This document shows positions 39,938 to 64,000 of a stretch of 64,000 nt of DNA, one piece after another. A program made the translations under genes and the position numbers. The stretch is from assembly GCA_012271135.1 (NCBI GenBank), contig JAAXGZ010000064.1, positions 37,664 to 101,663 on the forward strand, given 5' to 3'. Origin of the DNA: Caldilineales bacterium. GTDB taxonomy: Bacteria > Chloroflexota > Anaerolineae > Caldilineales > Caldilineaceae. The notes under the pieces were generated by a model. The model was given only the letters and a program-made list of their open reading frames with translations, made no database searches and was not told where the DNA came from. How positions within the stretch are numbered: position 1 is the first letter of the stretch; every line of letters starts with the position of its first letter.

Positions 39938-40933
<996 letters not shown>

Positions 40934-41035
40934 GGATTCCTCCCGTTGGAACAGCAAGATGGGTTTGGAGCTACAGACGCGGAGTGCGCGGTATTTGCAC
41001 CTCCGATTATACCGCCCGGCCCGACCCTTACACTT

Positions 41036-41217
41036 GCAGCCGGGGCACTGTTTCAATCTCGTTGATACGGGTATCCATTCACTGTCAACGGGGCGGCTCC
41101 CCTGTGTTCCATTGCGTCCTATACCGACTGATTTGATGACGCTTGGTACAGCGTGCCCATCACTGCCTGCGGCTTCCTTGACCAAAATCAACGAAAGTGA
41201 AACAGTGCCGCAGCCGG
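41036..41217. mobile_element. 166-bp miniature inverted-repeat element (41044-41209) with 8-bp target duplication
   Basis: The element starts GGCACTGTTTCA and ends with the reverse complement of the same 12 bases. The inverted similarity extends about 29 bases with a few mismatches. It is flanked on both sides by GCAGCCGG (41036-41043 and 41210-41217), a perfect 8-bp direct repeat and so a target-site duplication. No reading frame of transposase type lies inside, so it is non-autonomous. It occupies the 419-bp gap between the TIM-barrel isomerase and beta-glucuronidase genes. Eight-base duplications with GG-starting ends are seen in ISL3- and IS256-like elements; family not proven. Confidence 0.87.
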
Positions 41218-41352
41218 AGGGTTCGCAACCGGCCTCCGAATTGCTCGGTGTGGACGGGCAGGCCGTTCCCGGGAAGGCATGACGGGAACCCGCCGACCTG
41301 CCTCCGGTCAAGCGTGTTCAAGTTGCCGGTCGCCAGGTGAACCGGCAACGTC

Positions 41353-43167
41353 CTACGCAGCAACGTCCTCCCGCCACCGGGATCGCAGGAAGTGGGCGGC
41401 CATCTTGGGCCTGCGTTCACGGGTGAACACGCCCTTGTGGTTGAGCGATGCCGGTCGCATAACCCCCTGCCCCGTCTTGAAGTCGGCGAAGTTCCAGACG
41501 TGCAGACCCGCAATCCACGGTCGCTCCGCTGCGAGATCGAGCGTCATTCTCAGCACGTCAACCTGGTACTCCTCGGAGAACATCTCCGCCGGCTCGCTGT
41601 GATGGCCCGCGATCGTGTCCGCCCCGAACTCGGCGATGATGATGGGCTTGGCCAGCCGCTCGTGCAGCGCATCCAGTTCCTCTTCCATCCCGGCCCGCGC
41701 CTGCTCGATTTGGCCGCCCAGTCGATACCAGCCCCAGTACCGGTTGATCATCACGGCATCGCAGAGCTCCAGCCATTCGACCGGCCCTCCCATCACGCCG
41801 GCCAGTGAAAACGGCCGGCTGCGGTCCAGTTCCCTGCCCGCGTCCACCAGGGCAGCGAAGAAATCGGTCCCGGTATCCACAAAGGCCGGATTGGCGCCGG
41901 CGCCCCGGAACCGAGCCATGAAGTCGGCGGTCATCGGTTCGTTGGCCACGCTCCACATGATGACGCTGGGATGGTTCAGATCGCGTCGAATCAGGTCGCG
42001 CAACTGGCCCTTGCAAACCTCAAGCCAGCCGGCGATCCGGTCGCCATTGTCCCCGAACATCAGCCCGACCGCCGGGATTTCGTCTATGACCAGCAGACCG
42101 GCCCGGTCCGCGTACCGAAGCGCCTCCTCCGCGTACGGGTAGTGGGATGTGCGATAGGAGTTGGCACCCATCCACCTGAACAGTTCCCCGTCCTTCACGA
42201 TCAGGGGCAGATTCAGGGCCCGGCCGTGCACGGGGAAGTCTTCGTGCTTGCCGAAACCCTTCAGGTAAATCGGCTCGCCGTTGAGCAGAATCCGACTGTT
42301 CCGCACCTCAATGGTCCGCACACCCGTTTCCAGCCTGTAGGTGTCGCGGACCTTGCCCTCGTCGTCCCGGAGCTCCATGGCAACCGTGTACAGGTGCGGA
42401 TCGGCAGGGGACCACAGGCGGACCCCAGGCAACTCAAACCCGCATTCCGCCGTCCCGTCCTTCACGTCGCATGTGCTCTCGGCCACTGGCCGGCCGTCGG
42501 CGTCGAGCACCTGGCATGCCAGCCGCGCGGCAGCCGCACCGGCTACTTCGGCCTGCAGATTGACGTATCCGGTCAGGCCGTCGCTGCGATCGAATCCCGT
42601 CTCAACGCGCGCGGAGACGATGTGCACGGCGTCCAGGATCGAAACCCACACCGGACGGTGGATGCCCCCGTAGGGAAAGAAATCAAAGCTGGTCGGAGGA
42701 AACGACGACATCATGGACGAGAAGGGCGAATCCGACGCATTGCCCGGGGGCACGCGGTCCGGCCTGAGATCGTTGTTGACAAGCACGGCCAGCCGGTTGC
42801 GTCCGTCCCTCACCAAAGCCGAAATGTTGAACTCGAACGGCAGATGGCCGCCTTCATGGGATCCGACTTCAGTCCCGTTGAGCCACACCCGCGCGCTGTA
42901 GTTGACCGAATCGAAACGCAGACTCAACACCGAATCGGGACCGGGAGCACTGGCATCGAACTCCGTGACGTGCCAGGCATCCCCAAGGTAGTCGCGGTGC
43001 TCGGGGAACAGTTCGTTCCAGCTGCCGGGTACCGCAATCTGCCGGCCGGCCGGCAGTCCGTTCCACCACGCCTCCCGTTCACCCACCCCCTCGGGATCGA
43101 CCTGGAACGACCAAAAGCCGTCCAAGGCCAAGGAACATCGAAAACGGTTGGTTTGGGGATACAACAT
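41353..43167 (-). CDS. uidA: Beta-glucuronidase, glycoside hydrolase family 2
   Basis: Hydrolyses beta-D-glucuronides, releasing glucuronate. At 604 residues it matches the E. coli enzyme in length. Order: sugar-binding domain, immunoglobulin-like domain, TIM barrel. The acid/base Glu is in WSVANEP (about residue 410) and the nucleophile in IIAEFGADT (about 512); the nearby AGHHSEPAEMFSEEYQ stretch is typical of GUS rather than beta-galactosidase. ATG at 43167. First gene of the minus-strand sugar cluster, now separated from the next gene by the miniature element. Confidence 0.9.
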   Translation of the reverse strand: MLYPQTNRFRCSLALDGFWSFQVDPEGVGEREAWWNGLPAGRQIAVPGSWNELFPEHRDYLGDAWHVTEFDASAPGPDSVLSLRFDSVNYSARVWLNGTEVGSHEGGHLPFEFNISALVRDGRNRLAVLVNNDLRPDRVPPGNASDSPFSSMMSSFPPTSFDFFPYGGIHRPVWVSILDAVHIVSARVETGFDRSDGLTGYVNLQAEVAGAAAARLACQVLDADGRPVAESTCDVKDGTAECGFELPGVRLWSPADPHLYTVAMELRDDEGKVRDTYRLETGVRTIEVRNSRILLNGEPIYLKGFGKHEDFPVHGRALNLPLIVKDGELFRWMGANSYRTSHYPYAEEALRYADRAGLLVIDEIPAVGLMFGDNGDRIAGWLEVCKGQLRDLIRRDLNHPSVIMWSVANEPMTADFMARFRGAGANPAFVDTGTDFFAALVDAGRELDRSRPFSLAGVMGGPVEWLELCDAVMINRYWGWYRLGGQIEQARAGMEEELDALHERLAKPIIIAEFGADTIAGHHSEPAEMFSEEYQVDVLRMTLDLAAERPWIAGLHVWNFADFKTGQGVMRPASLNHKGVFTRERRPKMAAHFLRSRWREDVAA

Positions 43168-43239
43168 GCCTGATTTCCTGCTGTGTCCGCGGCCCAAAGT
43201 GTGGACCGGCCTGCCCGGCGGAGCGACCCGCCGCCTTGT

Positions 43240-63934: not shown

Positions 63935-64000
63935 GGCACTGTTTCAATCTCGTTGATATGGGTGGCGGTCCGTCAGGGGCATCCTCCGTACCAGCGCGTT
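63935..64000. mobile_element. Terminal end of an insertion element running off the window
   Basis: Begins with the same GGCACTGTTTCA as the miniature element at 41044, and matches it over about the first 29 bases with one change. The flanking 8 bases are TAGTGGGC. Interior bases after 63964 differ from the short element. The other end and any transposase lie beyond the window. The 94 bp between the upstream gene and this end show nothing. Confidence 0.7.

Follow-up and report, generated by a model that had tools for sequence, protein, structure and literature searches.

A mobile miniature element and its copies

The window analysed here is a stretch of 64,000 nucleotides from a Caldilineales bacterium (assembly GCA_012271135.1, contig JAAXGZ010000064.1, positions 37,664 to 101,663). 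At 41044..41209, on the plus strand, it carries a 166-bp miniature inverted-repeat transposable element (MITE) that is mobile and multi-copy, and that we call type A, or MITE A. Its copies, the insertion sequences that share its ends and the DNA flanking the family together make it very probable that MITE A is moved in trans by a Mutator-like transposase of the DDE type, and that the family prefers to insert about 40 bp upstream of TATAAT motifs that are likely −10 elements.

MITE A is bounded by inverted arms of 23 bp, of which 21 positions pair (2 mismatches); the left arm, GGCACTGTTTCAATCTCGTTGAT, occupies 41044..41066 on the plus strand and its partner 41187..41209 on the minus strand. The unit is flanked by an 8-bp target duplication, GCAGCCGG, the two copies of which (41036..41043 and 41210..41217, spaced 174 bases) match exactly. 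A sequence-only reading of this DNA had placed the unit and its exact flanking duplication correctly to the base. It had also proposed inverted ends of 29 bp; the inverted ends were borne out, while their length was not, the good inverted repeat being 23 bp and about 29 bp being the stretch in common with insertion sequences. Allowing up to 3 mismatches, the arm 23-mer occurs three times in the window (both ends of MITE A and 63935-63957) and in none of 100 shuffles. Two open frames cross the element (39938-41311 on the minus strand and 40866-41282 on the plus strand), both entering from the flanks; nothing indicates coding there. MITE A has no known gene of its own.

In the genome that contains the window (4.05 Mb in 159 contigs) there are 7 copies, 163-170 bp long and 76-100% identical, including copies 99% and 98% identical to the window unit at other places. 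Among 61 genomes searched, the element was found in all 4 of the genus, each with several family copies, and one other genome had just a 22-base end. At the window site the flanks are joined in all three congeners: MITE A is absent and the target is present in a single copy with 1-2 mismatches (GCAGCCGAAGGG, GCGGCCGAAGGG and GCAGCCAAAGGG; the window itself reads GCAGCCGG-element-GCAGCCGGAGGG). The insertion therefore most simply took place in the lineage of the window, after the split from its congeners. A second MITE A site (locus L046) is empty in congener G002, and G003 has an empty site where a second miniature class, MITE B, is inserted at L061. For the 98% copy (L003), the flanks on either side match separate places in congeners. 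Some copies, on the other hand, keep both flanks across species (L077 with L118, and L119 with L121), suggesting that the family has been moving since long ago. With relatives in all three congeners and an empty site in each, the unit is neither single-copy nor a conserved non-mobile locus, the two cases that the sequence-only reading had named as speaking against mobility.

These comparisons also bear on an alternative reading of the unit, as a regulatory element or a structured RNA conserved in a sugar operon. Folding of the 166-bp unit was equalled or bettered by only 1 of 200 shuffles (z −2.9), the inverted ends contributing most, and the interior is still recognisable in diverged copies (165-bp consensus; per 10-bp block, 69-84% of copies carry the majority base). 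A two-sided change was kept in 6 of 28 predicted pairs. However, the unit is missing at the same locus in all three congeners and copies lie at unrelated loci; moreover, half of the pairing in the consensus comes from the inverted ends, and covariation contributes a term of only −0.73. We dropped this explanation, which now seems extremely improbable, given the lack of any Rfam match at the unit and the weak consensus fold.

Insertion sequences with the same ends

The sequence-only reading had proposed that MITE A, lacking a transposase, is moved by one encoded elsewhere. Such a gene was indeed found, in insertion sequences of 1073-1210 bp that have the same ends as MITE A and a transposase match. 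The elements are complete and their transposase intact in congeners; in the window's own genome they are broken or cut by contig ends, being present as one disrupted copy (L057) and contig-end pieces. One such piece, an end of a group-A-like insertion sequence, lies at 63935..64000 on the plus strand of the window, where it is cut off by the end of the contig. Such an end is found no more than 26 bases from the start of at least 12 contigs of this genome, and it seems to be these repeats that broke up the assembly. Plasmid and viral collections gave no match.

The insertion sequences fall into two groups, told apart by ends and transposase. Group A has ends ...CAATCTCGTTGATA and variants, with transposases 80-98% identical to the transposase P0003, and group B has ends ...CACTTTCGTTGAAA, with transposases about 43-49% identical to it. 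The transposase, of about 337 amino acids, is of the DDE type and carries C(2)H, the signature that PMC3942029 gives for prokaryotic Mutator-like transposases. Across 29 aligned transposases, DETW, which holds the first D, is present in 26, and C-x2-H lies 18-19 residues past the second D, with the H retained in 26. A nearly full-length relative with 29% identity and an open frame of 356 codons was seen in another family of the class (L188 of genome G037).

MITE A combines ends of both groups. On the left, its first 29 bases are of the group-A type and match an end of the insertion sequences L137 and L170 at 97% identity. On the right, its outer 22 bases agree fully with ends in 3 of 4 group-B insertion sequences, and at 86-95% with group-A ends. 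Between the ends, comparison with 11 insertion sequences gave no match longer than 13 bp; only the ends being in common, MITE A is excluded as a simple deletion product of these 11. MITE B, in turn, measures 142 bp, of which 82-86 bp match one end of a group-B insertion sequence at 87-91% identity; against L168, 30 bp of the opposite end are exact and about 27 bp in the middle are without a match. Since both ends match and the middle does not, MITE B is apparently an internal deletion product of a group-B insertion sequence. The interiors of the two MITEs are only faintly similar (9 of 200 shuffles were as good).

Target duplications were likewise shared between the miniature and the long elements. 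Among 42 complete elements fitting the end pattern (elements with other ends, such as L057 and the C9 copy, were excluded), 17 have an exact 8-bp duplication, 8 an exact 9-bp duplication, 3 one with a single mismatch, and 14 none. Both lengths occur in elements below 220 bp and in those above 700 bp. From the shared ends, duplications and host range we infer that the transposase of the 1.07-1.21-kb insertion sequences would move MITE A in trans.

The ends of MITE A had at first suggested a different partner, namely the IS6/IS26 family. The end GGCACTGTTTCA resembles the IS6 pattern described in PMC7986276 (a G dinucleotide at the tip and cTGTt; GG..CTGTT), and IS6 elements make 8-bp repeats, as MITE A does, with two MITEs known. 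Weak matches to the NCBIfam IS6 model were obtained with all 29 transposases (best 3.4e-11); with PF13610, 12 of the 29 reached an E of 1 or lower (best 0.00022). The scores, however, are poor: P0003 reaches 26.7 bits against a cut-off of 125 and scores higher with ISH6 than with IS6, PF13610 has no match in the window's own genome at E <= 0.001, and exact 9-bp duplications in 8 of 42 elements do not fit IS6. Membership in IS6/IS26 was dropped on the PF13610 search and on the likely 337-amino-acid partner, and we regard it as highly unlikely. IS1595 was considered as partner after IS6; fragments of IS1595-family transposases, some with a stop, lie at L077 and L078 of the same genome.

Insertion upstream of TATAAT-like motifs

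According to PMC3942029, TnGBS and ISLre2 (p-MULT 3) and some ISKra4 (p-MULT 4) insert 15-17 bases upstream of the −35 box. Prompted by that paper, we tested promoter distance in the present family. When the sequence outside each of 126 distinct ends was scanned for TATAAT, one mismatch being allowed, bases 31-40 gave 26 matches and each 10-base bin from base 51 on gave 0-3. We then included further loci from the congeners and counted in independent flanks belonging to ends that fit the search pattern, after dropping flanks shorter than 120 bases or containing N and merging homologous ones (201 to 183). In 44 of 183 flanks such a hexamer begins at 31-42 and is directed away from the element, as compared to 4.6 +/- 2.1 (maximum 11) in 200 shuffles; among 12-base control windows, 43-54 had 8 and the others 0-4. 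The flanks used first (28/119) and the 64 fetched later (16/64), which serve as an independent check, agree. The peak is sharp, with 33 matches at positions 39, 40 and 41, and a looser −10 definition (at most 2 mismatches, with A2 and T6 fixed) placed 55 of 183 flanks at 39-41 as compared to 6.3 +/- 2.3.

Both end types show the pattern (34 of 127 A-type flanks and 10 of 56 B-type flanks). For MITE A itself the hexamer is present in 9 of 30 copies, with 2 of 30 in the control; these 30 copies include sites shared between species and are thus not fully independent. In the lists of MITE A and MITE B, copies with identical interiors were merged, and the 14 rows for MITE B are 7 copies, each in both orientations. 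A search for one fixed orientation of the element relative to the promoter found none, the 44 promoter-side ends being 29 ATCTCG, 11 CTTTCG, 3 GTTTCG and 1 ATTTCG. The hexamer is present without the element in all three empty-site comparisons, and was therefore not carried in by it. Base frequencies within the hexamer are no independent evidence, because the flanks were selected by their match to TATAAT.

It is possible, though rather doubtful, that the transposase instead recognises the TATAAT-like motif directly, as a DNA sequence or an AT-rich shape, the link to promoters being incidental. This would fit the absence of a clear −35 signal: when the 33 flanks whose −10 lies at 38-42 were compared with TTGACA, spacers of 13-22 gave means of 1.1-1.8 matching bases out of 6. 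It would also fit the lack of an excess of long frames downstream (at least 120 amino acids in 13 of 28 promoter-side flanks and in 48 of 85 others), and the finding that around the hexamer no other aligned position has one base at 50%. Yet the hexamer points outward far more often than inward (44 flanks and 8 flanks, respectively, of 183 at 31-42), and in the window the motif lies 73 bases ahead of the predicted start of an isomerase gene. The distance, moreover, equals that of TnGBS: by our arithmetic, a 17-base spacer puts the −10 of TnGBS, ISLre2 and ISKra4 at about 39-41, where that of the present family peaks (published distances from PMC3942029).

Other points, too, weigh against movement of MITE A in trans to sites upstream of promoters. 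The label 'promoter' derives from the direction of the hexamer, its fixed distance and the equal distance in TnGBS and relatives, and the −35 signal fails to add to it, while the counts of long frames tell against it or, at best, say nothing. Under the one-mismatch rule, a −10-like hexamer at 30-43 is lacking from 21 of the 30 copies of MITE A. The window motif, at 33, falls outside the 39-41 mode, on a shoulder of the peak that has fewer flanks (9 at 32-35), and a two-hexamer promoter scan found no promoter at the window locus. As for the transposase, its action on MITE A is deduced from shared features; 14 of the 42 complete elements show no duplication; and the window's own genome lacks an assembled, complete and intact transposase gene, the longest open stretch (residues 78-337) ending at a contig end and the L057 gene having one stop and a run of N. 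Given what is directly shown, namely the copies, their 8- or 9-bp target duplications, the sites without the element, the ends in common and the enrichment of TATAAT at fixed positions, we continue to favour a MITE moved in trans and a family that prefers sites upstream of likely promoters.

The transposase may find the TATAAT motifs via the transcription machinery, by contact with RNA polymerase, or by reading the −10 DNA. Elements that land just upstream of promoters could spread without breaking genes while giving promoters new upstream DNA. Judging from the sites themselves, insertions of this family would tend to change gene regulation rather than break genes. With two transposase groups, parents of 1.2 kb and minimal donors of 142-166 bp, the family would be a compact system in which to test promoter finding. 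Its copies, old and young, would also serve as a natural archive of where promoters lie in bacteria that are represented here solely by metagenome-assembled genomes.

Relation to known elements

The transposase scored far under the cut-off of every NCBIfam model that it matched. ISH6 (p-MULT 2) is the best-scoring model for P0003 (E 4.2e-12) and is matched by all 29 aligned transposases, but P0003 reaches 45.5 bits against a cut-off of 240. For IS256 it has 25.1 bits (cut-off 150) and for ISKra4 13.9 bits (cut-off 205), and the 19 NCBIfam families matched include no ISLre2 model. A search of PDB sequences with the transposase returned weak, unrelated-looking matches only, mainly to zinc fingers. 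The closest solved fold is the ISCth4 transposase, which we take to belong to the IS256 family; VIA-align mainly lists ISCth4 and retroviral integrases, and the absence of other families from it carries no weight. IS256 elements make duplications of 8-9 bp, the lengths also seen in the present family.

In their target sites the families differ. IS256 insertion is reported to be random and ISH6 to target AANATNTT (PMC3942029), a sequence that, judged by eye, fits none of the 25 exact duplications of the present family. TnGBS, ISLre2 and some ISKra4, as the same paper describes them, resemble our family in having near-symmetric ends with promoters on both sides and a C/D(2)H motif past the second D, at 11-19 residues in those elements and 18-19 here. 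As to the fixed distance to a sigma-A promoter that marks the TnGBS-like class, the present family shows a −10-like hexamer at 39-41 bases and no clear −35 signal. MITE A is similar to the type II bacterial MITEs, as described in PMC10969869, in its shortness, the lack of a known gene, inverted ends, target duplications and a similarity to the autonomous insertion sequence that is limited to the ends. It differs in that its partner insertion-sequence family lies outside the named ones tested and that the insertions of both share a preference for sites upstream of promoters.

Insertion upstream of promoters (TnGBS, ISLre2 and some ISKra4) and the type II MITE form are thus already published; the main text of PMC3942029 contains no word starting with 'MITE'. 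We found no description of the present family in open-licence literature, ISfinder lying outside that search. As far as our searches go, what is new is a family below the cut-offs of the matched NCBIfam models, together with its MITEs, and an insertion habit that the two have in common. Evenly balanced, in our judgement, is the stronger proposal of an undescribed Mutator-clan family comprising at least two transposase groups and MITEs, in which targeting would need the −10 only and the 166-bp MITE would dock upstream of working promoters throughout the genus, rewiring their upstream control.

The window copy and the sugar genes

MITE A sits between two genes on the minus strand, 110 bases upstream of the predicted start of a sugar isomerase/epimerase-like gene (39938..40933; PF01261, E 6.7e-43) and 143 bases from the end, at 41353, of a beta-glucuronidase-like GH2 glycosidase gene (41353..43197; PF02836, E 1.3e-64 for 41353-43164, with PF02837 and PF00703). 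The isomerase start codon is predicted at 40933, and the frame remains open upstream, through the MITE, to 41311. The sequence-only reading had named a beta-glucuronidase and a sugar isomerase here; the families fit (GH2 and a xylose-isomerase-like TIM barrel), and the exact enzyme names are not proven.

An exact TATAAT, kept in all three congeners, lies at 41006..41011 on the minus strand. It starts 33 bases off the edge of the element and reads away from it, toward the isomerase gene, its near end being the one 73 bases from the predicted start codon. With MITE A just upstream of this conserved motif, the isomerase gene may well have a promoter of its own, and MITE A may then replace what lay upstream of that promoter. 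The insertion would thus have left an isomerase promoter region with an intact −10, in which element DNA replaces the sequence from about 33 bases before the −10. That MITE A also changes the coupling of the operon, as had been proposed, is a guess.

Further miniature elements

Two MITE A copies, at L046 777-946 and L105 1501-1670, have their end types exchanged relative to the interior. They lie close together at the same locus in two species, and the L046 site is empty in the second species, as though a single upstream region had been hit on two separate occasions. Congener G003 holds a third class of miniature elements, 192-194 bp long and with the same outer ends (L138 312-503, L227 303-495, L228 304-496, L236 347-539 and L245 366-559). 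Finally, congener G001 holds a 242-bp composite (L115 1501-1742), one side of which is MITE A sequence and the other MITE B sequence, an arrangement that recombination or nesting of two MITEs might produce.
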